Origin: a virus
Reading direction: 5' to 3' (one strand)
Length of the DNA stretch: 20,093 nt
Virus record (IMG/VR): IMGVR_UViG_3300029915_001234
Coordinates: 1-20,093 of that record
The position numbers and the translations under genes were made by a program. Shown here piece after piece: positions 1,431 to 19,356 of this stretch. Each line of letters begins with the position of its first letter. Position 1 is the stretch's first letter. The notes beneath the pieces are model-generated. The model did not search any database. It was not told the origin of the DNA and worked only from the letters and a program-made list of their open reading frames with translations.

Positions 1431-4121
1431 CTACGCGGGTTCGTAAAATTTGAACGCGGCCTTGAACCACGCCGGGAAAAACTTCTGGTTTTCCTCGTAA
1501 ACACGGATGAAATCGCTGTCGAGGATGTAGGTGTCCCCGTGGTCGGTCTCACTGCGCACGATGCGGCCACACGCTTGGATGATTGTCATGACCGTTTGGA
1601 GCATGTACCATTCTCCGTCCAGCTTCATTTTGGCCGCCACCTGCCGGTCACCGAGATAGCCAAAGGGCACCTTGGCGATAATTTGAAACCGGGCTAGGTC
1701 ATCGTCGAAGCTGTAGCCCTCGGTCATGCTGGGACTGATGAGCACCGTGGCCTGCTTGCTCTCCCGGTGCCGGTTGAAAATCAGCGTGCGCTCCGCCGCC
1801 TTGGTGGCAAACAGCACCCGGCCACGGCAGCTGTCGAGCCGAGACAGGTAGGCGTGAATTTTCTGGCCGAGCGCGTAGCTGTGGGTGTGGATGATCCCCT
1901 TGTCGTTGGCGTGTGACTCCAAGATGGTCTCGCACATCCGCAGCAGGCGGGGAGTGGTGGCGTCCACGCAGGCCCGGCCCATGGAACCCACTGTGGTCAT
2001 GTGTACCATCCGGTTTTCCGCCGGGAAGGCGCTGTCCAGCTCCAGCCACGCCATCCGCTTGGGGTTGATGCCGAGGCTGCGGCAGAAAACGTCCTTTGGC
2101 CCCGGATAGGCGCTCATGTATACACGCGTGGCACCCAGCTGGTTGATCAGCTCCGGCACGAACGGGGCGGCGCTGAGCGGTTTGGCGATGCAGGCCAGCT
2201 CACCCTCCTCCAGCTCCTGCCAGAAGACCCAGCCGTCCGGGTCGGTCTGCATGTTGCTGACCGCGTGCTCGATGCGACCGAGGTGGCTCTTGAGGCCGCT
2301 GTATTCGCTCTGCATTTTCCGGTTGGTTGGGTTGAGCAGCATGTTCTCCTGTAGCATGTCCAAGCGTTCCTTGCCCATGCCAATATACTTGGCGGTCAGC
2401 CAGCTGGCGAACTCATCGATGTAGCGCATCTTTGGCACTGGACGGCAGGCGGGTGCCCAGTTATCCAGCGTTTTCTTGTTGATCAGCACTTCGACAAAAC
2501 CGGTGATCTGCTTCTCAAGTGTGTGACAATTATGAACAATCACACCTGTTTTAGACCACGCGCTAAGGGCCTTGTTGAATCGTGTTCGCACAACGTACGT
2601 GTGGTTATCAGCAACCTCTAAGTCGAAACAGGGTTGCTCTGCACGCACCGGTGAAACATTTTTAACTTTTACCTGCTGAGGTCTGAATTCAGAGTCCCAC
2701 ACCGCAGGCATCGAAGGTGGTGTTAGCTTAAGCTTATACGCTAGTTCTGGATGTATAAAAGGCGCGACGATATCTGCTAAACGTGTGGCATTCTTCTTGT
2801 TAAAAACGATGATCCAGTAACGATGTTTTGCCTTTTGTACGGTTGCTCTAAGGCTAAAGCGTTTGCGCAGTGCGCCCACCAGCTTGTGACAAGCTGATTT
2901 AGAGAATGATTCGGTGTGCAAAATGACATGAGCTAGACCGTTAGAGGTGTGCTGCGCACTGCCGTCGTCCATGAACCAAATGGCCAAGGCTTTAACGTCA
3001 AGTGCGTTTAACATCCAATCCGGTACGTGTCGTTTAGGGGGAGCGAAAACAGGCGCGTCTAAACGAAAGGCACGGCTGGCAGCACGTACCGCAGGCGTTC
3101 CCGCGTAACCGTTTTCTTCTATCCCTGTGACTTTACCGTCCAGCAGGCACGCTTTCCACGCGCAGTAATTTTTTTGCTTGATTCCGTGTGTCCAGCATAA
3201 GCGCAAACCGCCCGGCACGGCGGTGAGTGAACCGTCGCCAAGGAACGACCCAATGACGAGTTGGAGCTGGTCGTCGTTAAGAAATGCCGTGTGTTTGCCG
3301 AATGCGCAACCAAGCAGAATGTCGCCCGGAATAAGGGCACCGGCGGCTTGCCAGCCCGTGGTTGTAAGCAAACGGTGTTCATGTGTACAGCGTATGTCGC
3401 CCTTTTCCGTTGTCACGCGCACCAGCTTTTTGTGCCCCGTGCTGTGTGTTTTTACAACATTTTTGTGCTCGAAGCCGTGAGGGCCGTAGCACAGGACACG
3501 TGTACCGGTCTGTATACAGTCAATACGAACCGGCCCCGTCTCGGTTTCAACTAGCGTATCTCCCGGAAAGCATTCATCCGCCACGAGGATGTTGCGCGGG
3601 CCGTGCTTGCCAACGTACAGGTGCTCAGTGAACAGGTAAGGATAGTTCGTGATCGCCATGTGGGCCATGCTGAAACTGCTGTAAGCCGAGACGTAGGGGC
3701 AGGTTTTCACCTGCCGCTGCGGGCAGCGCTGGGCCTTGTCTTTCTGCCCGGCCAGCCCGCCCACCATGCAGGTGCCGTTTTTGGCGCAGAAGTATTCGCT
3801 GGAACTTTTCAGCGAGGCCGCCCGGCCCCGGAAGCGCGGCAGGTAGCGCGGGAAATCATGCTCCAGCTGGTCTTGCAGCATTTTCTGGGTGACGAGGTAA
3901 TAGCCGCCGGTCAGGTAGCCGGGAATATCGTAGGAGTCAGCCCAAAGGGCGGTGGTCGCACCTACGGCTGATTTGCCGACGCCTGTCGGGGCGCTGATGG
4001 TGATATCGTTGAAGCCGTCCTCGACGGCCCGCTGGATGAACTCCAAGGCCTCGATCTGCGCCGGGCGTGGTCGTTCCATTGGAAAATAATCCATGATCGG
4101 TTCCAGCGCGGTAGCTTGCAT
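1431..4121 (-). CDS. DinG/XPD-like superfamily 2 Fe-S DNA helicase precursor with intein
   Basis: ATP-dependent DNA helicase of the Rad3/XPD/DinG group, precursor 896 aa, 548 aa after splicing. Walker A is APTGVGKS at residues 44-51. Four cysteines at 112, 118, 133 and 141 lie between Walker A and Walker B, where this family holds its [4Fe-4S] cluster. The DEAH-type box is DECH, split by an intein: Asp182-Glu183, then intein residues 184-531, then Cys532-His533. Motif VI is a Gln-x-x-Gly-Arg-x-x-Arg at about 849-856. The open frame extends upstream to 4349, but that part overlaps the opposite-strand gene at 4162 and is Arg/Ser-rich junk. ATG 4121 follows GTTCTT with a 9-base gap; ATG at 4094 is an alternative start. 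It leads the minus-strand cluster down to base 1 and is divergent from the tail genes. Likely roles are replication fork, recombination or repair support. Confidence 0.9.
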   Translation of the reverse strand: MQATALEPIMDYFPMERPRPAQIEALEFIQRAVEDGFNDITISAPTGVGKSAVGATTALWADSYDIPGYLTGGYYLVTQKMLQDQLEHDFPRYLPRFRGRAASLKSSSEYFCAKNGTCMVGGLAGQKDKAQRCPQRQVKTCPYVSAYSSFSMAHMAITNYPYLFTEHLYVGKHGPRNILVADECFPGDTLVETETGPVRIDCIQTGTRVLCYGPHGFEHKNVVKTHSTGHKKLVRVTTEKGDIRCTHEHRLLTTTGWQAAGALIPGDILLGCAFGKHTAFLNDDQLQLVIGSFLGDGSLTAVPGGLRLCWTHGIKQKNYCAWKACLLDGKVTGIEENGYAGTPAVRAASRAFRLDAPVFAPPKRHVPDWMLNALDVKALAIWFMDDGSAQHTSNGLAHVILHTESFSKSACHKLVGALRKRFSLRATVQKAKHRYWIIVFNKKNATRLADIVAPFIHPELAYKLKLTPPSMPAVWDSEFRPQQVKVKNVSPVRAEQPCFDLEVADNHTYVVRTRFNKALSAWSKTGVIVHNCHTLEKQITGFVEVLINKKTLDNWAPACRPVPKMRYIDEFASWLTAKYIGMGKERLDMLQENMLLNPTNRKMQSEYSGLKSHLGRIEHAVSNMQTDPDGWVFWQELEEGELACIAKPLSAAPFVPELINQLGATRVYMSAYPGPKDVFCRSLGINPKRMAWLELDSAFPAENRMVHMTTVGSMGRACVDATTPRLLRMCETILESHANDKGIIHTHSYALGQKIHAYLSRLDSCRGRVLFATKAAERTLIFNRHRESKQATVLISPSMTEGYSFDDDLARFQIIAKVPFGYLGDRQVAAKMKLDGEWYMLQTVMTIIQACGRIVRSETDHGDTYILDSDFIRVYEENQKFFPAWFKAAFKFYEPA
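2529..3572 (-). mobile_element. Intein in the DECH box of the helicase, LAGLIDADG type
   Basis: A 348-aa in-frame intein with Cys1 (CFPGDTLVET, block A), a Thr-x-x-His block B (CTHEHRLLTT), two LAGLIDADG-like helices (VIGSFLGDGSL and LAIWFMDDGSA), block F (CFDLEVADNHTYVV) and C-terminal His-Asn followed by extein Cys (VIVHN, then CHTLEK). All nucleophiles for class 1 splicing are present. The insertion lies between Glu and Cys of DECH, so the unspliced helicase cannot form its Walker B site. The DNA is visibly more AT-rich, with rarer codons, than the flanking extein, in keeping with acquisition by homing. The LAGLIDADG helices keep acidic residues, so the endonuclease may be active. Confidence 0.93.
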
Positions 4122-9350: not shown

Positions 9351-11777
9351 TCTGGCCCCGGCGGTCGGCTTGCGATTTTTCTTCCGTGGCTTCGCGTCCG
9401 AGTCCGATTCTTCGTCGTCAGCGTTGTATTCAATCTCACCGCCGACTGTCATCGTCATGGTGGTCGGGTCGACCGTACCGTCGTAATGCTTGAGCGCATC
9501 GCCGTGGCGGTTAAGAAAGATGAAGTAGCGGACGCGGTCGTGCTTGTACTCGTCATCGGAAGCGCAAATGCCGATGGCGGCGTCGACGATGCCCGCCTTC
9601 TCGAACGCGCCCTGAAATGAAGACATGTTTGGCACGGTTTTGCCCACGGTCTCACGGTTGCAGCGATCGGGAAGGATAACGCAGCAGCCCAGCTCCGCGC
9701 CCATCGCACGGGCCTGCGTGTAGATGTCCGCCTGCTGCCGCCAGTCCGGTGATTTCTTGTCTACGCTGTCCGGCCTCACCGTTTCCGCGTAATCGATCAC
9801 AATGGCTTTGGGCTTCAGACCGTAGGTGGCAATGACGTGCCGGGCGTGGGCCTTGATCTCGCTGATGGACGTGCTCTTGGACGGGTAGCCCTTGAACCAG
9901 ATGTTGCCCCACATTTTTTCCTTCAGTTTCTTTCCCGCCACCAAGATGCCCTTCTCAATGTTGTCGCCGAACTGATCCTGCGTCCAGCCGGTGACGTTGG
10001 TGAGCGCGCGGTAGGCGGCCAGCTCCTGTGTCAATTCGCACGCGTAGTAGAGCACGTCCGCGTCCTGCGTCTGGGCGATGCCGAGCGCGAGGTTGATCGC
10101 AAAGCCGGTGTTGTGCGTGACGGTGAAATCACTGTGCAGATAGCGACGGTTACCATCGATCTCTATACCGAACCATTGTCCATCTCCAACCGGTTTAACT
10201 TTAATGGTTGTGCGATCAGAGGCTTTAGCGGAGTTTTTGCCGCGCTTGCGCGCTACTTTTACCGGGATTTCACTGATCTGCCCTTGAACGTAGGTTCGGT
10301 AAGCGGTTGAGTAAATTGTTTTGCCTCTCACCTCGCACGCTGTTTTTACTTTGCGCACGAACGATTTGAAACCAAGGCTGCGCGCCAGCCAGCAGGTGTC
10401 TTTGCAAAGCTGTTCGTTGGTATTTACGAATATAAAGCCACGGTTTTTAGCGTGGCTTCCGTCACTGTCAATAAGACCCGCGAGCAGTTGCAGCCTAACC
10501 GTTCTGCTGTTTATCCTGTATACGTCAGGTATATGCTTAGAACCAAGTACGCCAATAGCTCTAAGTTTGACTGTAATAGGATTAGGCTGCCTTGCTGATT
10601 TTCTAGGAAAATTAAACTGAACGCACCGCGTTTTACCGCGATAGATGTTTACTCTCGTATTTTCACCGGCGGCTATTTCAAACAAGTAATTAGTTATCTC
10701 AGGATCACCGTCACCGACAGAGATGGTCGGTGAGTTAGTGTTACCGTCGCCAAGCCACAGGCCAACAAAGTAAGGATCAAGAGGTACGCTTGCGGACTTA
10801 AATTCTACGCCTACTTTATACCCTTTCCATGTCCGTTTGAACCATTTCGGCTTCTTAGCGTAATCTTCGGCTGTTATCTCCAACAGCGAGCCTTCATGGT
10901 ATCGATCTTGCCAGCGCCCACCTAACGGTTCCGTGCCGGGCAGCCTTTTGAGACACAGCACGTGGTCAGAGTTCACAGTGTAGGCGTCTCCGTTAGCCTG
11001 CGATACCTTGAACATCGGCCCGTATCCAGTGCCGCAGCTGAGCACGTTGCGTGCAGTCGAATCGTCTCCCATGACCTTGTCACCGACCTTGATACTGGAG
11101 ATACGCTTGGTCGTTCCATCAAACATAAGTATCTCTGTGTCAGGATGCTGGCATTTGAAGCGCTTAGGGGGCGCAAGCAGCACGATCAGCCAGCCCGGTG
11201 CCCAGCCGTTTTTCCAAAGCTTGTCAAACTCCGGGTAGCCGGTGCGGACGCCGTAGTCGCGGTCGTTGACAGTGCGAATAATTTTACCGTAGTCGTCGTA
11301 GAGCGACACCCCGTCCTCCTTCAGGTTCAGGCCCACGGCCTGCGCGTCCTTGATGAGCTGCTCCGCATTGATCTCGTCGCCCTTGCCCTCCACCTGCGCC
11401 GCGTGTATCTGCCGGATGGCGTCGTAGAGCGCCCGTTCCCTTGCGAACTGGACGGCCATCGCCAGCAGGCCCTTCTTGTTGCTGGTGTCAGTGTTGGCCA
11501 GCTTCTCGATGTATTCCAGCGTCTCTTTGGCGTGGTCGGCGTTGATTCGCTGGGTCGCGTGGAAGGCGAAGTTGCCGAGCGTGGTAAAGTTTGGGCACTC
11601 GTTGAACTTTTCCCGATAGGCCTTCAGGTGGTGGACGACCTCCGTGGCTGCCGGGCCGGTGAAGTAGGTGGACTTGATGATCTCGCCGAAGGCGTAGAAC
11701 TCGTCCGGGTACCGGATCAGGCAGGCCAGCAGCGCATCCTGAAAATCTTGAGAGAAATTGTAGGTTTCAGTTGACAT
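9324..11777 (-). CDS. dnaB: DnaB-like replicative helicase precursor with intein
   Basis: Hexameric replicative helicase of the DnaB/gp4 RecA-fold group; precursor 817 aa, 469 aa after splicing. Residues 1-110 form a helical N-terminal domain like the DnaB primase-interaction domain. The RecA domain has a Walker A position APPKRFK-(intein)-TGF. The usual Gly-Lys-Thr is Phe-Lys-Thr, with no conserved glycine, which is unusual. After the intein come the catalytic Glu motif YYACELTQELAAYRA, Walker B (AIVIDYAE), and an Asn-Arg-His-Gly segment at the arginine-finger position (FIFLNRHGDAL). The C-terminal tail is charged and disordered. ATG 11777 is the start that leaves the divergent HNH gene free; the ribosome site is weak. 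It should unwind DNA ahead of the polymerase encoded nearby. Confidence 0.88.
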   Translation of the reverse strand: MSTETYNFSQDFQDALLACLIRYPDEFYAFGEIIKSTYFTGPAATEVVHHLKAYREKFNECPNFTTLGNFAFHATQRINADHAKETLEYIEKLANTDTSNKKGLLAMAVQFARERALYDAIRQIHAAQVEGKGDEINAEQLIKDAQAVGLNLKEDGVSLYDDYGKIIRTVNDRDYGVRTGYPEFDKLWKNGWAPGWLIVLLAPPKRFKCQHPDTEILMFDGTTKRISSIKVGDKVMGDDSTARNVLSCGTGYGPMFKVSQANGDAYTVNSDHVLCLKRLPGTEPLGGRWQDRYHEGSLLEITAEDYAKKPKWFKRTWKGYKVGVEFKSASVPLDPYFVGLWLGDGNTNSPTISVGDGDPEITNYLFEIAAGENTRVNIYRGKTRCVQFNFPRKSARQPNPITVKLRAIGVLGSKHIPDVYRINSRTVRLQLLAGLIDSDGSHAKNRGFIFVNTNEQLCKDTCWLARSLGFKSFVRKVKTACEVRGKTIYSTAYRTYVQGQISEIPVKVARKRGKNSAKASDRTTIKVKPVGDGQWFGIEIDGNRRYLHSDFTVTHNTGFAINLALGIAQTQDADVLYYACELTQELAAYRALTNVTGWTQDQFGDNIEKGILVAGKKLKEKMWGNIWFKGYPSKSTSISEIKAHARHVIATYGLKPKAIVIDYAETVRPDSVDKKSPDWRQQADIYTQARAMGAELGCCVILPDRCNRETVGKTVPNMSSFQGAFEKAGIVDAAIGICASDDEYKHDRVRYFIFLNRHGDALKHYDGTVDPTTMTMTVGGEIEYNADDEESDSDAKPRKKNRKPTAGARLTQADGPT
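10110..11153 (-). mobile_element. Intein in Walker A of the DnaB-like helicase, LAGLIDADG type
   Basis: In-frame 348-aa intein starting at Cys1 (CQHPDTEILMFDG), with block B (YTVNSDHVLCLK), two LAGLIDADG helices (FVGLWLGDGNT and LLAGLIDSDGSH), block F (FGIEIDGNRRYLHSD) and C-terminal FTVTHN followed by extein Thr. All splicing residues are present. It occupies residues 209-556 and interrupts the P-loop between Lys and Thr, a classic DnaB insertion point. Its DNA is more AT-rich than the exteins. Both LAGLIDADG motifs retain their acidic residue, so the homing endonuclease is probably intact. Confidence 0.94.
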
Positions 11778-11805: not shown

Positions 11806-12444
11806 ATGAAACCAAAAGACCGCGCCAACGCGATGAAACAACGTCGTGATGAAGCTGTTAGACGCTTCGGTACCAGAGTTAAAAATAAGTATCCGGTCGG
11901 CGCTGTATACGGTCGCCTTACGGTGGTCGGTCACGATAGGTTGTCCACCGGATGCTGGGCTGCATTGTGCCGCTGTTCGTGCGGTAAGCCGAAAACAGTG
12001 CGCTACCCTAATCAAATGCAGCGTGGGTTGGTTAATAGCTGCGGTTGTTTCAACGCTGAAAAGGCTTCTGCGCACTGCCGCTCGATGAATCCGGCTAAAA
12101 GCCGCCCGCCTGCGCAGGTAGCCTTTGACGCTGTGTATCGCACGTACAAGCAAAGCGCTAAACTCAGGAACCTTGCGTTTGAGATTACAACAGAAGCAGC
12201 TAAAACTCTGTTTAATGACGTCTGCTATTACTGTGCCGAGCCGCCTTCGGCTGTTCAGCGCGCTAAACAGGCTGGGGTGCGAGTGTCCGGCTACGTTTAC
12301 AACGGCATCGACCGCATTAACTCCGCTAAAGGCTACACAGCGAACAACGTGGTCACATGTTGTAAGCAGTGTAACCGGGCTAAGCGTGATTTGTCGCATA
12401 ATGAATTTATTCGGTGGGCTAGACGTGTGGCACGTTGCTGGTAG
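11806..12444 (+). CDS. Free-standing HNH homing endonuclease
   Basis: 212-aa endonuclease of the common phage HNH group. The N-terminal half has a Cys cluster (CRCSCGKPKTV, then NSCGC) resembling the DNA-binding zinc module found in such enzymes. The C-terminal nuclease has CYYC (zinc pair), NGIDRINSAKGYTANNV and CCKQCNRAKRDLSHNEF, matching the usual DR-x-N/GY.../CCxxCNxxK pattern. It is not inside an intron or intein. It sits alone on the plus strand, between two minus-strand genes, with 28 bp before and 3 bp after. Its codons are more AT-rich than the flanking replication genes, a sign of recent transfer. It would nick or cut an allelic phage locus nearby. Confidence 0.92.
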   Translation: MKPKDRANAMKQRRDEAVRRFGTRVKNKYPVGAVYGRLTVVGHDRLSTGCWAALCRCSCGKPKTVRYPNQMQRGLVNSCGCFNAEKASAHCRSMNPAKSRPPAQVAFDAVYRTYKQSAKLRNLAFEITTEAAKTLFNDVCYYCAEPPSAVQRAKQAGVRVSGYVYNGIDRINSAKGYTANNVVTCCKQCNRAKRDLSHNEFIRWARRVARCW

Positions 12445-12447
12445 CGA

Positions 12448-13530
12448 CTAAGAACGTGCTTTCAGCAGTGTGCGCCGGGGCGTGAAATACGACTGTTCAC
12501 CATTGACGTAAAGCCAGCAGTGGTAGTGCCGGATAGCTAAGCCAAGTGTCCGCCAGAAATCCAGCGGGCTGCGCACCGGTTGCACGTTCGGGTCTACAAC
12601 GAACGTGCGTTCATGCAGAAAATCTCCGGGCTTGTGGTTGAAATTGGCGCAGACCCGGCGCACCGCTTCCGGGAAAATCTGCTGGCGGGTGATCCACGCC
12701 AGCTTCTGGGCGGTGACATGCTTCTTGTAGTATTTGTGCGTTTGCAGGGCATTGTGCCGGTGGCGCTCAACAGCTTCGGTGCCCTTCAAAGTTCTACCGC
12801 AGTAGGGCCGGAGCACGTGGCGAAGGTAGGTCTCCTCGGTGGCCAGCCATTCCGGGGCCAGCTGTAACTCCTTGTCCTCGTACATGAGCGGCTCGCTTTC
12901 GCCGCTGTGAAATATCCGGTGGCGCACCAGCCAGCACGCCGCCACCACCTCACTGTTCAGCATGATGTCGGCGAGCGTGTTTTTCTGGTCGGTGTCCGCC
13001 AGCACGGATAAGCTGGTCAGGTTAAAGGTGCCGAACCGGTCATGGCACAGCTGCTGATAGGTCTGCGCCCGCTTGACCCCAAAATCGGCGGCCAGCAGCT
13101 TGGCGGTGAAGGTGGCTGCCCGCGCCTTTTCGGTGTGGCCGACGACGGTGCGCTCGTGGACGACGTGCGCCACCATGTTGGCCAGCAGATACATGCGCAC
13201 TGAGCAGCTGGCCTTGTTGGCGTTGTCAATGATCTGTTTGCGGTACAGTGATACGTTGTCTACCGGGTTGCGCTGAAAGACGGAGGCGTAGCAGTCACAG
13301 TACAGGCGCTGAAGATGTGGCAGTTCCGGGTCTTCCGCCCGCAGCACCTCCATGTCGAAGCAGGCGGGCGCGATCTTGAACTTGACCTTGTCGAGGGGAA
13401 CTTTTCCGTCCCGGACGCCCATGTGTAGACGACAGCCTTCGGTGTGCGGGCAGGTCTGGCATTGGGGATCAGCCATGCTGCGTTCCAGCCCGTAGCAGGG
13501 CAGCGGTGCGGTTTGAGGTATTCTTTCCAT
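12448..13530 (-). CDS. Hypothetical protein with N-terminal four-cysteine cluster
   Basis: 360-aa soluble protein of unknown function. Near the start are Cys12, Cys24, Cys27 and Cys33 (C-x11-C-x2-C-x5-C; the latter part reads CQTCPHTEGC), suited to a zinc or iron-sulphur site. More cysteines appear at about residues 57, 78 and 80. The middle is helical with several basic stretches, and the C-terminus is basic. It is divergent from the polymerase with a 39-bp shared gap, and ends 3 bp from the convergent HNH gene. ATG 13530 starts after GTTCTT-N17. Location between helicase and polymerase suggests a replication or DNA-metabolism role, inferred from context only. Confidence 0.85.
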   Translation of the reverse strand: MERIPQTAPLPCYGLERSMADPQCQTCPHTEGCRLHMGVRDGKVPLDKVKFKIAPACFDMEVLRAEDPELPHLQRLYCDCYASVFQRNPVDNVSLYRKQIIDNANKASCSVRMYLLANMVAHVVHERTVVGHTEKARAATFTAKLLAADFGVKRAQTYQQLCHDRFGTFNLTSLSVLADTDQKNTLADIMLNSEVVAACWLVRHRIFHSGESEPLMYEDKELQLAPEWLATEETYLRHVLRPYCGRTLKGTEAVERHRHNALQTHKYYKKHVTAQKLAWITRQQIFPEAVRRVCANFNHKPGDFLHERTFVVDPNVQPVRSPLDFWRTLGLAIRHYHCWLYVNGEQSYFTPRRTLLKARS

Positions 13531-13569
13531 AGTTTCAGTGCTTCTTCAAGAACGCCGTTCTACTGGACT
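13531..13569. promoter_or_regulatory. Divergent gap upstream of polymerase with overlapping palindromes
   Basis: This short gap holds two overlapping perfect palindromes: TTCTTCAAGAA (13542-13552) and AGAACGCCGTTCT (13549-13561). GTTCTT faces the minus-strand gene (17 bases from its ATG), and GTTCTA faces the polymerase, 7 bases before GTG 13570. The arrangement mirrors the inverted GTTCTT pair at 4131-4152. It may be a bidirectional promoter or operator; no standard -35/-10 is evident. Confidence 0.4.
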
Positions 13570-16500
13570 GTGTCTGAACCGCTAGAAGCACAGAATCCAG
13601 AACTAGACGTCGCGACGCGAAGTCCCGCGAAGAAGCGCGTCATGCGTTTACCGGACGGTGAGATCGTGCCGGTCGGCGAATTCAAATCGATGAGCAAACT
13701 CGACCGCGACACGCTTATCTACTATCTCGGCGAGGAAAAACGGGTGATCCCGGCCAGCGCCAAAAAGAAGGCGCGGGTGGAATGGGTGACCGATTACAAT
13801 CCCGGCAACGCGCTGCTGAACCAGCCGCTCCAGCCCGGCCCGGAGTCTCCCATCTGCAAGCAATGTGATCTATACAACAATGGCTGCCGGACTCCGTTCA
13901 TGCCTTATGCCGGATCAACCACCCCGCTGGTGACGGTCATTTTTGAGGGGGTTAACCGGGCTGAGGACATGGAAGGCGAACTGGGCCACGGCGGCAGCAG
14001 CCAGCGCCTGCGCCGCATTATCAAAGATGCCGTGGCCGCGACCGGCGTGACCGAGGCCGACATCCGTTGGGTGCCAATGACCCGTTGTCACAGCTGGGCA
14101 AAAAAGGTCATCGACCTTAAGCCGCGCGGCAACTGGTGCCGCTACCATGTCATTGACGATCTCCTACGCCACCCGCCCGCCGTGATCATGCCGGTAGGGA
14201 CAAAGGCGCTGGGCCTGCTGTCACACAAATCCAACGCCGGGGAGTGGTCGGGGCGCACGTTGACTTTTCGCGGCTGGCCGGATGACTGGCTGATGGATGC
14301 AAAGTACGCGCTGCCGCGTGTGCTGCACCAGCCGAACGTGCCCAAGGGCGCACCCGTGCCACCACCGCTGCCGCCGGACATACTGGGGCACCCTCTGTTC
14401 GGGCCGCCGTCAGACGTCCGCGTACCGGTCTGTCCGATTCAAGCCCCAAGGTTGATCGACCTTGCCCAGAGCGACAAGGTCACCAAGGAGTGGGAGAGCC
14501 ACATCGTCCGGGCGCTCAAGCTGGCCAAGGACGGGGTCAAGGCTTTGACGTATACGCGGCCTTGGTACCGTTTTACGGAGGACGTTGAGGCGATCGAGCA
14601 GACGCTTCGGGAACTGTTGACAAATCCCGGCCTGCGCCTGTGCTACGACACGGAAACCACGGGCCTGCGCCCGTGGGCGGCTTCGGCGGCCATTGTCAGC
14701 ATGATGTTCCGCTGGACAGACCCGGCAGACGGTCAACCGCGTTCACTCGGTTTTCCGTGGGACTGTGAAAACAGCGCGGTGCGCCCCCACATCAAGCGGC
14801 TGAAGCTGCTCGTCTGGGCGGTGCTTATTCAGTCGTCGCTGGTCGGCCACAACCTGACCTTCGACATGTTGTATACGTTTGCCGTGTTCTGGCGCAAACA
14901 TCTGACCGGCTGGACTGACCCGGCCTTCAACCGGCGGCGGGACAAGCTGGTCACCGAGCTGGCCAACGCCTGCCATTGCGACACGTGGCACATGGCGTTT
15001 GCGTGGCAGCAGCGCCGGGGCAGTCTCGGCTTGGATGCGCTCGCATACGACTGGGTGCCTGATCTGGCCGGGTACGAGGAGGAGATGACGCTGCTGATCG
15101 GGCTGCACCACGAGGCCATGAACCCGGCGGCAGGCAAGGGCGGCCACTACCTGAACTGCCCAAAGGAAAAGTGGCCCACGCATCTCCAGCCCTACGTCAT
15201 GGGTGACGTGGAGGTCTGCTATCAGGCGCATGACAAAATACAGGCGAAGCTGGAAGGCAGCACGGTCTACACGTTCCCGCTGGCCAACCCAAACGCGCCC
15301 GGAAAGTTTCGCTATTTTACGCCGCAAAACCGGGACTTTGTCTACCACCAGATCATGGCCCCGGCGGCTGCCGTGCTGATGAAGATGATGGCGCGGGGCA
15401 TGTACATCGACCAGACGGCACTGGTGAACATGGAAGACCAGATGCCGAAGGATATTCGGAAGCTGCGGGAAGACCTGAAAACGGTCGACCCGCGCATCGA
15501 AGCGTGGGTGGCCACACAAGAGGCGACCCAGAAGGGCAAGAAAATAAAAGGTGACTACGACGACGACGGCGAGGAGCGCTACGCCAAGTGGGAGTTTGAT
15601 CTGGAAGACAAGGCCCAGCTGAAAGACCTGCTGTTCAACTGCCTTGACTTGCCCGTGCTGCGCTTCACCAAAGGTGGTCGCAAGCTGCTGGGCGACGATG
15701 TGCAGAAGGCGCACGACGCCATGGCGCGGGCGGTCAGGCAGGAAATGACGGAAATTGCTGACAATCCGGTAATGGTAGAAAAAGCCGTGCAGGCCCAGCT
15801 CCGCGAGGTGGCGGCGGTAGACAAGTTCACCTTGAACAAAATTTGCTGCCAGTTTGAAAATCTGCGCCCGCTTCAAAAATACCGCAAGGCGCTGAAGCTT
15901 TACTCCACATACGTGCGACCGCTGCGCAATCTTTTCAGCGTCGGGCTGGACAAGAAGGAGCGTACGGCGGATGCGCACTTGTGTTTTGACCAGTGCATCC
16001 ACGCCCGCTTCATGCTAACGGGTACACGCGGTGGCCGCCTGTGTGTTTCAGGTGAAACTATCTTGGACGTGCGTGTTAACGGAGTGAAGAAACTTGTTGC
16101 AATTAAAGACATATGGAAGTATAATAAACAGCATGTTACAGTCAAAACCCATAAAGGCCGCTGGTGTCGTATCAGCAAGCTTTACTACAAAGGAACAGAG
16201 CAAATGTATGAAGCCGTATCTGCGAGCGGTTTCACGATTAAAGCTACGGCACAACATCGAATTTACACCTCAAGCGGATGGAAGCATCTCGGCGACATTA
16301 CCAGACAAGACACCGTTCTCGTTGATACTGACAGCCGACCGGAAGCTGGTTCTAACGGCGGACAGTTTTCGTCTGCTGGCCTTGGAAAAGAAGTGGAGCT
16401 TTCAGACCGTAAGCGAGCGCATCTCGCGGCGGGTCGCACTCCGCAGCTGGCGCGAGTACCCTCAATTTCGGGAACAGCTAAAGCAACTGTATTCAGCTCG

Positions 16501-19356
16501 GCTGGTCGAAGCCCAAATCGGAAACCGGAACGGCGAACGGAAACCATCGCTGTCAATACCAGAGGAGAAACTTACCTTGCTGATTCAGCGTGGAATTCCG
16601 GTGGAGCGGATTGCGAAGATGTTCAAAACTACCCCGTTTTTAGTGCAACGGAATATGCAGGTATATGGGTTACAGAAATTGGGCAGCGCCCCGCTGAAAG
16701 CACGGGCACTGACCGAGGCCCAGATTTTGGAAATCAACCGGATGTGCCCCGGATTGATGGTGGCCTTCGCGAACTACTCCGTGGACAAACCTGCTTTTTA
16801 CCGGGCAGCTTACGACGCGTATACAAACCTACTGACAGCGGCGTGGTTTTTGAAGGACATGTGTCACATGCCGTTTACGCGACACAAAGAGACGTATGGC
16901 GGCTTGGAGGAGATATCGTGGTCAATGAACCGGCGCGAGCTTTACATTTCAAAAGAGCTGATCGCAGCGGGCATACCGCACTACAGGGAATACGTATACA
17001 GCGGGAGCTTGCGAGCCGACTTCGCTCTGATTGGTACAAGCATACTGGTGGAGATAGACGGGGAGTACCATACCGAATCCGGCGACAAGCGCAATACGGA
17101 TGTAGCGACGAAACTGGGCTACCAAGTGCTTCGCTTCACGACGAAGGAAGCACAGTTCAGCGCTGGAATGGTGGTGGCATCAATCAAGGCTGCTTTGAGC
17201 ACCTGCTCGAAATTAAATCCGTTGGTGTCGAAGCGGTCTGGGACATCGAAGTCGAAGAAGACCACAGCTATCTAGCCCACGGCCTGTTTCACCACAATTC
17301 TTGCCAAGACCCCAACCTGCAACAGCTGCCCCGCGACGGCGTTGTCAAATCGATGTTCACATCCCGCTTCAAGGAGCGGGGCTGTATCTACCAAGCTGAC
17401 TTGTCCCAGATCGAGCTGCGCCTGCTGGCCGCCGCCTGCGGTGACTCGATGATGGTCAAGGCCTACTTCGATGACATCGATCTGCACTCGCAGACCACCA
17501 GCCTGATTTTCGGCGTCAAGTACGAGGAGTTCTCGAAGGACAACATGAAGCGGCTTCAGAAGCTGGGCAAGGACAAGGAGGCCAAGGCGCTCGACGAAAA
17601 ACGGTCAATCGGCAAGTGTGTTGATCCGTTAACTCTAGTGTCGGTTAACGGGAGCATAGCGCGGATTGGCGACGTGCATTCAGGCAGGCAGGACGATACT
17701 TTTTACCCTGTGACGGGCATGTCCATACAAACACCTACCGGTGTTGCAGAAATCCGTAGTTTTTACAGTAACGGTGTAAAAGAACGCCTTCTTGTTTGCA
17801 GTTTGCACGGCATCTTAAGTTGCAGCCTTAACCACCGGTTTCAACTCGCAGACGGCTCACTGGTGATGGCTTCTGACTTGAAAGAAGGGATGGTGCTTAA
17901 AGACGGTCAAGCTCTGGTTAGCGGCAGCTCTGACAGCAAGGTGTTTTTTAACCCGTTCGGAACTGAACCTAAAAGCGATGTTTTTCAGGTTAATGTTACA
18001 CGGGAGCTGGCCTATGTGCTGGGTCTATTTTACGGTGACGGTTGTTCAGTCCGCAATCGAATCGAAATAACTACTGGCGGCAAACCAGAGGCTTTTGCTT
18101 GGCAGGATACCGTGGCTGAAGCTCTAAAAACTTGTGGCTTTGAGCCGTGTATACAGCGGACTACTTTTAGCGGCACACATAAATCTGCAAAACTAGGTAA
18201 GATCACGGGCGCTTCAGGCTCTGTGCGGTTTGGCTGCAAACGTGTTTCTGACCTATTTGTGCAGCTAGGTGCCGTGGACGCGACTGATTACAGGCGGCGC
18301 ACCTTACTGATACCTAACTGGTTATTCAACGCCAGTCGCGACGTGAAGCTTGAATTCTTGGCCGGACTTTTGGATACGGATGGCTACGTTAAAAAAGACG
18401 GCAGTGCTTACGTAACCTCTAAATCATGGCGTTTCGCTCAAGACCTGCAAGTGTTGTTAGGCACTCTAAACATCGCAAGCACGGTCAGCCCTAGCTGGAA
18501 CAAGTTGTACAGCAAACATTATTTTAACGTCAGAATTGCACGTCGTGACTCAGGTGAATTTGTGTGTAGACTGCGCCACACAGCTAAGCGCGAGCGCTTA
18601 AATCCGAAAGTAGCTTTTCGCTACGGTGCCCGCGTAAAAAACACGGTTAAGTTGGTTTTGCCACTAGAACGCGCAGCACTTGTTGAGATTTCAGTAGACG
18701 CGCCGCATCTGTACCTGCCCGAAGGCCTTACGACTCACCAGACTGTGAACTTCCTCACCGGGTATGGCGGCGGGGCCATGGGCCTGCAAAACGTGCTGGC
18801 CGGAAAAGACATTTACAAGTCGCCGGAGGAATGTCAGCTGATCATTGACAAGTTCTTCGACGCCTACCCCGCGCTGCGCACACTGCTTCAGAAGTATAAG
18901 CGGTTCATTCTCGAAGAACAGGTGGCCGTCTCCATTTTCGGGCGTGTGCGCGTATTCGAGGAAGTGCTCGGCAACGACGAGGAGGCCAAGGCCAAGGCAC
19001 TGCGCGCGGGCTGCAACCATCTGATCCAGTCCACCGCGTCGGACATGATGCTCGTAGCCTTGTTCTGCATCGAGAACCTGATGCGCCGGGCGGGTCTGGA
19101 ATCACTCCTTGTGTCCACCGTCCACGACTCGCTGCTGATCGACTGCATCCGGGAGGAGCTGCCGCAGGTGCACGAGATCGTGATGCTGGTGCTTAATGAT
19201 TTTCCGGGCGTCTTCAAGGCCGTGTTCGGCGACGGCTACGATACATCGTGGATGACGGTTGGTTTCACGGGCGACGCGGAGGTCGGTGAGAATTATTTGG
19301 CCATGCGCAAGATTCCAAAAATGGATATTGACTGGACGGAACTTTTGGCGCTGTAG
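13570..19356 (+). CDS. polA: DNA polymerase I-like replicative polymerase with UDG-like domain; two inteins
   Basis: Family A polymerase precursor of 1928 aa, 1134 aa after two inteins are removed. Residues about 94-260 form a uracil-DNA-glycosylase-like domain with the family-4 Fe-S pattern Cys96-x2-Cys99 ... Cys173-x16-Cys190, although the usual GEAPG loop reads EGVNRA, so glycosylase activity is uncertain. The 3'-5' proofreading exonuclease has Asp360-Thr-Glu362, HNLTFD with Asp432, and YVMGD with Asp546. The polymerase domain has a split GRL/SCQDPNLQ motif, motif A ADLSQIELR (Asp1277), a split motif B RSIGK/TVNFLTGYG, and motif C VHDS (Asp1853). There is no 5'-3' exonuclease. GTG 13570 is preferred for its GTTCTA-N7 context and 39-bp divergent gap; ATG 13642 is an alternative supported by the rarer codons between the two. 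Confidence 0.93.
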   Translation: MSEPLEAQNPELDVATRSPAKKRVMRLPDGEIVPVGEFKSMSKLDRDTLIYYLGEEKRVIPASAKKKARVEWVTDYNPGNALLNQPLQPGPESPICKQCDLYNNGCRTPFMPYAGSTTPLVTVIFEGVNRAEDMEGELGHGGSSQRLRRIIKDAVAATGVTEADIRWVPMTRCHSWAKKVIDLKPRGNWCRYHVIDDLLRHPPAVIMPVGTKALGLLSHKSNAGEWSGRTLTFRGWPDDWLMDAKYALPRVLHQPNVPKGAPVPPPLPPDILGHPLFGPPSDVRVPVCPIQAPRLIDLAQSDKVTKEWESHIVRALKLAKDGVKALTYTRPWYRFTEDVEAIEQTLRELLTNPGLRLCYDTETTGLRPWAASAAIVSMMFRWTDPADGQPRSLGFPWDCENSAVRPHIKRLKLLVWAVLIQSSLVGHNLTFDMLYTFAVFWRKHLTGWTDPAFNRRRDKLVTELANACHCDTWHMAFAWQQRRGSLGLDALAYDWVPDLAGYEEEMTLLIGLHHEAMNPAAGKGGHYLNCPKEKWPTHLQPYVMGDVEVCYQAHDKIQAKLEGSTVYTFPLANPNAPGKFRYFTPQNRDFVYHQIMAPAAAVLMKMMARGMYIDQTALVNMEDQMPKDIRKLREDLKTVDPRIEAWVATQEATQKGKKIKGDYDDDGEERYAKWEFDLEDKAQLKDLLFNCLDLPVLRFTKGGRKLLGDDVQKAHDAMARAVRQEMTEIADNPVMVEKAVQAQLREVAAVDKFTLNKICCQFENLRPLQKYRKALKLYSTYVRPLRNLFSVGLDKKERTADAHLCFDQCIHARFMLTGTRGGRLCVSGETILDVRVNGVKKLVAIKDIWKYNKQHVTVKTHKGRWCRISKLYYKGTEQMYEAVSASGFTIKATAQHRIYTSSGWKHLGDITRQDTVLVDTDSRPEAGSNGGQFSSAGLGKEVELSDRKRAHLAAGRTPQLARVPSISGTAKATVFSSAGRSPNRKPERRTETIAVNTRGETYLADSAWNSGGADCEDVQNYPVFSATEYAGIWVTEIGQRPAESTGTDRGPDFGNQPDVPRIDGGLRELLRGQTCFLPGSLRRVYKPTDSGVVFEGHVSHAVYATQRDVWRLGGDIVVNEPARALHFKRADRSGHTALQGIRIQRELASRLRSDWYKHTGGDRRGVPYRIRRQAQYGCSDETGLPSASLHDEGSTVQRWNGGGINQGCFEHLLEIKSVGVEAVWDIEVEEDHSYLAHGLFHHNSCQDPNLQQLPRDGVVKSMFTSRFKERGCIYQADLSQIELRLLAAACGDSMMVKAYFDDIDLHSQTTSLIFGVKYEEFSKDNMKRLQKLGKDKEAKALDEKRSIGKCVDPLTLVSVNGSIARIGDVHSGRQDDTFYPVTGMSIQTPTGVAEIRSFYSNGVKERLLVCSLHGILSCSLNHRFQLADGSLVMASDLKEGMVLKDGQALVSGSSDSKVFFNPFGTEPKSDVFQVNVTRELAYVLGLFYGDGCSVRNRIEITTGGKPEAFAWQDTVAEALKTCGFEPCIQRTTFSGTHKSAKLGKITGASGSVRFGCKRVSDLFVQLGAVDATDYRRRTLLIPNWLFNASRDVKLEFLAGLLDTDGYVKKDGSAYVTSKSWRFAQDLQVLLGTLNIASTVSPSWNKLYSKHYFNVRIARRDSGEFVCRLRHTAKRERLNPKVAFRYGARVKNTVKLVLPLERAALVEISVDAPHLYLPEGLTTHQTVNFLTGYGGGAMGLQNVLAGKDIYKSPEECQLIIDKFFDAYPALRTLLQKYKRFILEEQVAVSIFGRVRVFEEVLGNDEEAKAKALRAGCNHLIQSTASDMMLVALFCIENLMRRAGLESLLVSTVHDSLLIDCIREELPQVHEIVMLVLNDFPGVFKAVFGDGYDTSWMTVGFTGDAEVGENYLAMRKIPKMDIDWTELLAL
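16042..17298 (+). mobile_element. Polymerase intein 1, splicing domain with out-of-frame endonuclease
   Basis: 419-aa intein between Leu and Ser of the polymerase GRLS motif. Splicing blocks are in the polymerase frame: Cys1 (CVSGETILDV), block B with Thr69-x-x-His72 (IKATAQHRIYTSSGW), block F (VWDIEVEEDHSYLAHG) and C-terminal LFHHN followed by Ser. Intein residues about 98-390 carry no LAGLIDADG or HNH motif; they are Ser/Gly/Arg-rich and look like a disordered spacer. The same DNA read in the +1 frame encodes an HTH plus Vsr/DUF559-like endonuclease. Splicing residues are all present, so self-excision is expected. Confidence 0.9.
16208..17275 (+). CDS. Vsr/DUF559-like (EDxHD) endonuclease overlapping the intein in the +1 frame
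   Basis: A 355-codon open frame wholly inside polymerase intein 1 but shifted +1 relative to the polymerase. Numbering from ATG 16208, residues 119-155 look like a helix-turn-helix (PVERIAKMFKTTPFLVQRNM). Residues 241-315 match the Vsr/DUF559 nuclease fold: Glu244, Asp271 in RADFAL, Glu282-Ile-Asp284 in ILVEIDGEYH, His288, Asp298, then LGYQVLRFTT. This fits the EDxHD homing endonuclease group (Vsr-like), previously linked to phage introns and inteins. The start is unsure: ATG 16208 follows GGAACAGAG; TTG 16322 or TTG 16094 are possible, as is frameshifting from the polymerase frame. The domain ends where the intein's C-terminal splicing blocks resume in the polymerase frame. Confidence 0.72.
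   Translation: MKPYLRAVSRLKLRHNIEFTPQADGSISATLPDKTPFSLILTADRKLVLTADSFRLLALEKKWSFQTVSERISRRVALRSWREYPQFREQLKQLYSARLVEAQIGNRNGERKPSLSIPEEKLTLLIQRGIPVERIAKMFKTTPFLVQRNMQVYGLQKLGSAPLKARALTEAQILEINRMCPGLMVAFANYSVDKPAFYRAAYDAYTNLLTAAWFLKDMCHMPFTRHKETYGGLEEISWSMNRRELYISKELIAAGIPHYREYVYSGSLRADFALIGTSILVEIDGEYHTESGDKRNTDVATKLGYQVLRFTTKEAQFSAGMVVASIKAALSTCSKLNPLVSKRSGTSKSKKTTAI
17617..18741 (+). mobile_element. Polymerase intein 2 in the O-helix, LAGLIDADG type, C-terminal Gln
   Basis: 375-aa in-frame intein starting CVDPLTLVSV, block B (LSCSLNHRFQLADGS), two LAGLIDADG helices (YVLGLFYGDGCS and FLAGLLDTDGYV), block F (ALVEISVDAPHLYLPEG) and C-terminal LTTHQ followed by extein Thr. The last residue is Gln in place of the usual Asn; natural Gln-ending inteins are known but rare. 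It splits motif B (RSIGK/TVNFLTGYG) right after the catalytic Lys, so the unspliced polymerase cannot bind dNTP. The DNA is more AT-rich than the exteins. Confidence 0.93.

Follow-up and report, generated by a model that had tools for sequence, protein, structure and literature searches.

Homing endonucleases inside inteins are usually taken as domains of the intein protein. Fractured genes, in which split inteins are accompanied by free-standing Vsr-like endonucleases, were reportedly described by Dassa et al. in 2009, and I-Bth0305I is a phage endonuclease associated with a group I intron. In 2025 the ShiLan domain was described as an out-of-frame HNH nuclease in a phage methylase, in which the host frame is open and there is no splicing domain (PMC11855218). 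Its HNH frame, the third, begins 18 bp in, and the authors detected no ribosome-binding site for it and proposed internal (leaderless-type) initiation; the domain spreads between phages, and the insert is thought to be retained in the protein (PMC11855218). On overlapping reading frames in actinobacteriophages, PMC11855218 cites Gosselin et al. 2025 (preprint, 10.1101/2025.01.02.630785, 'non-canonical architecture') and Gorbalenya 1998 ('Non-canonical inteins'), and either may overlap with the present finding. Within the full-text literature searched, most subscription papers lying outside its scope, we found no description of an intein that has splicing blocks and houses its endonuclease out of frame.

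In this study we analyzed a window of 20,093 nucleotides, the whole of a stretch from IMG/VR virus record IMGVR_UViG_3300029915_001234. The results lead us to conclude that its polymerase gene very probably carries a mini-intein whose loop contains, in the +1 register, a homing endonuclease gene that is complete and separate.

The host gene encodes a family A DNA polymerase (13444-19356; Pfam DNA_pol_A, E 2e-46) and is interrupted by two inteins; the gene and all features described within it lie on the plus strand. Intein 1 occupies exactly 16042-17298, with C1 first, HHN last and then Ser +1. It is inserted at GTRGGRL|S, so that the polymerase reads GTRGGRL upstream and SCQDPNLQQLPRDG downstream. 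Intein-free orthologues are present at three loci (L003/L008 and L007) from two related phages, where the polymerase is uninterrupted across the site and the empty site reads GTRGGRL|SCKDPNLQQLPRDG. Intein 1 is a clean in-frame insertion with a known empty site, as an intein should be. Its N-terminal splicing domain, with blocks A, N2 and B, covers intein codons 1-98 (16042-16335), and its C-terminal splicing domain, with blocks F and G, covers 17185-17298 and ends ...VWDIEVEEDHSYLAHGLFHHN. Both domains are conserved across 20 inteins, as are the splicing residues C1, T69, H72, H418, N419 and Ser+1. Pfam Intein_splicing matches the polymerase frame from both ends (E 1.4e-9); with the empty-site orthologues, this bears out the limits and the polymerase-frame splicing blocks proposed in an earlier, sequence-only reading of this DNA.

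The polymerase frame is open through all 419 codons of intein 1, including a linker of residues about 103-379 (16348-17180) whose DNA is shared with the endonuclease gene. The sequence-only reading saw no endonuclease motif between the blocks in this frame, and Pfam agrees, giving no endonuclease match there. The nuclease lies in the +1 frame only, which places intein 1 outside the canonical definition of an intein with a nested endonuclease. Nor is this a fractured gene with a split intein, since the polymerase is one open frame from 13444 to 19356. A self-splicing RNA intron at this site was rejected because no group I or group II intron was matched in Rfam at E <= 0.5 within 15800-19000.

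Intein 2 of the polymerase (17617-18741) has the ordinary architecture with an in-frame LAGLIDADG nuclease and served as an internal control; its two remaining frames contain 22 and 33 stops. Further inteins at 2529-3572 (helicase) and 10110-11153 (DnaB-like helicase) also contain in-frame LAGLIDADG-type nucleases, and four inteins make this 20 kb phage fragment unusually dense. Additionally, a small ORF at 11806-12444 contains Cys/His pairs that by eye resemble an HNH nuclease, with no Pfam match at E 1e-3. The two genes flanking this ORF are direct neighbors in the relative L003, and the ORF is possibly a free-standing mobile nuclease gene.

The +1 frame of intein 1 stays open over 16088-17275, and 27 stops interrupt the third frame. 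The endonuclease gene, supported by Pfam, a family alignment and a structure search, would run from TTG 16322, its likeliest though unproven start, to 17275. It encodes a helical N-terminal part followed by a C-terminal Vsr/DUF559-type catalytic domain. Pfam DUF559 matches this frame (E 6.5e-8), and the best solved structural match is the catalytic domain of I-Bth0305I (3r3p; probability 1.00, TM 0.76 on target length, E 1.7e-3), with 22% identity in the fold alignment. The catalytic columns E206, D233, E244, D246, H250 and D255 (numbered from TTG16322) are kept across ten distant homologues except L090. The profile match, the catalytic residue pattern and the fold match identify an EDxHD/Vsr-like (DUF559) enzyme, the type recognized by the sequence-only reading, which had called for such profile and structure searches. 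Of the residues it listed, E244, D271, E282, D284 and H288 are the conserved E206, D233, E244, D246 and H250; the final Asp, however, is D255 rather than its Asp298. In L090 (3385-4314) the +1 endonuclease has Arg in place of the conserved catalytic His and also lacks D255, which suggests decay of cutting with both frames still open.

Predicted structures of the two readings differ along intein 1. In the intein frame, AlphaFold was confident at both ends, where residues 1-100 and the final 35-40 residues (about 382-419) have a pLDDT of about 88-97 (94-97 in the N-terminal splicing domain), vs about 33 for the linker (103-379, about 277 residues), which has almost no secondary structure. The intein-frame model is a HINT fold that matches solved mini-inteins, best 1mi8 (TM 0.61 on target length). 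The +1 protein was predicted with a pLDDT of 73.5. Its structural matches among viral proteins include DUF559 and mismatch-endonuclease phage proteins, and the structure search of its N-terminal part gave no confident solved relative. As a query alone, the +1 protein retrieved one viral match together with generic DUF559 matches in GTDB genomes, which was uninformative, and among phage isolates neither the window intein nor its +1 protein found more than weak matches. A DUF559 domain was also observed in frame in a Chitinophagaceae MAG (L037, 1-2931), inside an apparent aminoacyl-tRNA synthetase (the host enzyme being judged by eye), with similar repeats (LTPNPSPxGEGS) on its flanks.

At its 3' end, in its last codons and stop, the endonuclease gene overlaps the C-terminal splicing domain (blocks F and G). 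The block-F codons (VWDIEVEEDHSY), for example at window 17240-17275, read in the +1 frame as a basic tail, GTSKSKKTTA, which forms the end of the endonuclease in several relatives. This overlap may fix the sequence of the endonuclease tail.

Relatives among uncultivated phages were sought with the splicing blocks alone, with a wider search keyed on the block-F motif, and with the nuclease alignment, and the loci were entered in a census by six-frame profile search; the first two of these searches are blind to the nuclease. The block-F search yielded 37 loci, 26 of which have both splicing blocks and a nuclease in the +1 frame. Four are nuclease-free mini-inteins (L070-L073), two are incomplete (L089, with an apparent one-base slip, and L094, a C-terminal half only), and L104 and L105 are left unclassified. 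The other three (L099, L101 and L102) are distant inteins with the nuclease in frame, so the +1 position is not universal. Among PolA-type homologues in the six-frame census, every homologous intein with a DUF559 or HNH nuclease carries it in the +1 register. No homologue with a single open frame, which the sequence-only reading had named as an observation that would count against it, was found; all complete homologues keep both frames open, with the nuclease in +1. All searches together gave 30 intact contigs with a +1 nuclease, 27 of them distinct in the endonuclease core.

These contigs represent three host-protein contexts and two nuclease families (DUF559-type and HNH, HNH_3). Most have a polymerase A host and the GRL|S site. 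L098 and L103 have a helicase-like host and a DE|C site, with relatives annotated as DNA helicase, and L068 has a minor-capsid-type host, its Gordonia phage matches being annotated as MuF-like minor capsid protein. In a tree of the splicing domains, the HNH type falls to one side (58/76) and the DUF559 type has no resolved position. The distribution of intein 1 is patchy, in that it is absent from the closest polymerases and present in the more distant L069 and L090. In L089 (2461-3319), a near relative of L087, the apparent one-base slip near 2949-2974 breaks both frames and would be either a sequencing error or a dead copy.

The same arrangement was found in cultured phages. With the L098 intein as a lead, we identified Corynebacterium phage phi673, Pseudomonas phage MR14 and the Vibrio phages 159E43-1b and 104E43.1, which all contain a helicase intein whose +1 frame encodes a DUF559-type nuclease. 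When GenBank was searched with the +1 protein of MR14, 40 records matched; 37 were from Vibrio phages, and phi673 and MR14 were also among them. In CP-T1 and 1.194.O the nuclease is likewise in +1 and the helicase frame is unbroken. The frame was checked in six of the 40 records, and in all six the nuclease is in the +1 frame of a helicase intein and has no gene annotation. The names under the GenBank matches are helicase, coil-containing protein, hypothetical protein or NTPase.

How the endonuclease is translated is best judged from the relatives. In many of them a +1 start codon lies just past block B, preceded by a Shine-Dalgarno sequence built from block-B codons. In L067, for instance, ATG at codon 89 follows GGTGAGGAGGT (which codes Gly-Glu-Glu-Val; -12.9 kcal/mol), L076 has a GTG start with a Shine-Dalgarno of -13.4, and L063 and L108 each have an ATG start with -9.3. 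Across 26 loci the mean was -5.9 vs -3.9 +/- 0.5 in synonymous shuffles of these inteins, with 0/300 null sets as low, and 14 of the 26 reached <= -6 vs 6.8 expected (null maximum 13), few loci being individually significant. In the window itself there is no ATG or GTG with a Shine-Dalgarno sequence at intein codons 72-96, and its translation route is therefore drawn from the relatives. The best-placed start is TTG 16322, which has no Shine-Dalgarno. The +1 ATG at 16208-16210, with a weak, distant AAAGGA, is an unlikely start, and both upstream candidates (ATG16133 and ATG16208) are disfavored because the +1 frame there has no constraint of its own.

Programmed +1 ribosomal frameshifting would produce a fusion of the N-terminal splicing block to the endonuclease from the same architecture, and we consider it improbable. 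In its favor, the window and L069 lack a strong internal ribosome-binding site before a boundary ATG or GTG, and the +1 frame is already open close to where the intein begins. The relatives, however, have boundary start codons with Shine-Dalgarno sequences, the register is common to two unrelated nuclease families, and no shift-prone site was noticed in an inspection that was not systematic. That the +1 frame is unconstrained before about codon 79 is neutral on this point. Thus the sequence-only suggestion that the endonuclease is uncoupled from polymerase translation stands for the family through internal initiation, backed by the Shine-Dalgarno signal and a frame switch at codons 79-92, although the window lacks the ATG or GTG with a Shine-Dalgarno. 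Based on these sequence features, the endonuclease is most likely a separate overlapping gene translated by internal initiation.

Substitution patterns distinguish the roles of the two frames. Near-identical pairs carried no information on selection, and diverged pairs were used. In these, changes silent in the endonuclease and altering the intein occurred at 0.58-0.91 per opportunity vs 0.06-0.30 for the reverse. Between the window and L069, 149/194 endonuclease-silent, linker-changing opportunities were used vs 48/212 for the reverse, and amino-acid identity is 62% in the endonuclease (+1) frame and 33% in the linker (intein) frame. The pattern is reversed in the N block and in block F/G, where the intein frame is under purifying selection. 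Constraint passes from the intein frame to the +1 frame around intein codons 79-92, with none on the +1 frame upstream of about codon 79, and the cultured pair L132-L139 agrees for the N block and the core. Because the substitution classes reverse along intein 1, the middle behaves as an endonuclease gene and the ends as an intein, with the linker merely kept open. This is the outcome of the per-frame comparison that the sequence-only reading had recommended.

The same data bear on two further alternatives. That the +1 endonuclease is a dead relic, retained only through its overlap with the polymerase frame, is very unlikely; the linker frame must stay open regardless and L090 has lost the conserved His, but the +1 amino acids are under strong purifying selection and the catalytic residues are kept in distant homologues, the window included. 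Still less credible is a functional polymerase-frame linker with the +1 frame as its by-product. It would account for more than 270 codons without stops; however, every diverged pair tested shows a conserved +1 frame and free divergence of the linker frame, and the linker has no family match in Pfam. The substitution classes and the predicted disorder refute a functional linker domain.

The absence of stops in the polymerase frame is itself informative. The host frame sits at endonuclease codon positions 3-1-2, and for this reason a host-frame stop requires a T-ending endonuclease codon before AA, AG or GA. Synonymous permutation of the endonuclease codons gave a mean of 8.1 polymerase-frame stops vs 0 observed, and none of 20,000 permutations reached zero. 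T-ending codons were used at 0/56 stop-creating places vs 40/177 neutral places (Fisher 5e-6), and the third frame of intein 1 was as expected under permutation. Similarly, each of the 30 uncultivated-phage contigs has 0 host-frame stops vs 3.1-18.8 expected, with a normal third frame, and cultured phages have 0 vs 3.7-10.2 expected. As controls, the three other window inteins, with the nuclease in frame, have 13-22 stops in the +1 frame. The sequence-only reading had noted that both frames are stop-free and attributed the open polymerase frame to selection, and both points hold. A sequencing or assembly artefact, in which two compensating indels mask an ordinary in-frame endonuclease in an IMG/VR virus record that is probably a fragment, has next to no probability and is ruled out by stop avoidance at the window locus and in 30 independent contigs, since an in-frame endonuclease would not purge the other frame of stops and the same register recurs in these contigs and in cultured isolates. 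On this statistical evidence, the window architecture is real and not a sequencing slip.

Together, these results suggest how such an intein would work. The polymerase-frame reading would yield a HINT domain split by about 277 disordered linker residues, and the conserved blocks indicate that the precursor could splice to leave a functional polymerase. The +1 reading would produce the EDxHD/Vsr-like (DUF559) endonuclease as its own polypeptide, in the relatives by internal initiation from a start after block B, often with the block-B Shine-Dalgarno. The endonuclease may then cut intein-less polymerase genes and so spread the intein, a homing role suggested by the patchy distribution alone. Selection for an unbroken polymerase would purge all stops from the linker frame. 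In the +1 register these stops can always be removed silently (T-to-C), since NNT and NNC codons are always synonymous. In the +2 register, Met followed by a codon starting with A forces TGA, and there would be 36 unavoidable stops over the 30 loci, with none in five loci. Silent stop removability is a plausible reason for the +1 register of the family, and common descent within each nuclease group also contributes to the bias.

We conclude that the out-of-frame endonuclease arrangement is a real, largely overlooked way to build a mobile intein. On balance, we lean towards regarding these loci as a widespread, undescribed class of entangled inteins, in which splicing domain and homing endonuclease are separate proteins in overlapping frames, in the +1 register and with block B as the ribosome-binding site. 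Such a class would have emerged among inteins of polymerases, helicases and minor capsid proteins, and with two or more families of nuclease. With splicing and cutting as separate genes on one DNA, the two can evolve and be expressed independently, while neither is spared by a frameshift or stop in their shared DNA. The arrangement also provides a path by which mini-inteins could gain or lose a nuclease. Annotation misses the +1 nucleases, the cultured-phage records naming a helicase or other single product, and the linker seems nonsense until the other frame is read. The cultured carriers make the question of translation directly testable.

An entangled intein is a possible intermediate towards fractured genes. 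In Pectobacterium phage Ymer (L125, 2075-5185), a helicase gene is split around the halves of an intein, and a LAGLIDADG nuclease gene overlaps there in the +2 frame; the locus looks like a fractured gene and is a possible neighbor of the entangled architecture.

Compared with known systems, intein 1 shares features with each. Canonical inteins with a nested LAGLIDADG or HNH endonuclease, such as the PolA inteins of phages DP SC_2 and DP SC_6 (L126, L131), likewise have splicing blocks A/B and F/G around a nuclease, but theirs is fused in frame in one polypeptide, whereas that of intein 1 is a separate overlapping gene. Fractured genes (Dassa et al. 2009) resemble it in having the endonuclease as its own gene between intein halves and in the Vsr-like superfamily; in contrast, their host gene is divided between separate reading frames, with splicing in trans, while the host of intein 1 is one frame and splicing would be in cis. 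I-Bth0305I (EDxHD/Vsr-like, 3r3p) has the same catalytic-domain fold and order of conserved acidic and His residues, yet it is group I intron-associated and identity to the +1 endonuclease is low (22%). The sequence-only reading could name no precedent, and the ShiLan domain (PMC11855218) is a partial one, the closest published precedent we found for this architecture. Both have a nuclease gene in another frame of the insertion, an open host frame, phage-to-phage spread and proposed internal initiation. The ShiLan domain, however, has no detectable intein or intron splicing domains, whereas intein 1 is a genuine intein (Intein_splicing E 1.4e-9), and the ShiLan HNH lies in the third frame, whereas the intein family uses the +1 frame, with two nuclease families in polymerase, helicase and minor capsid hosts.
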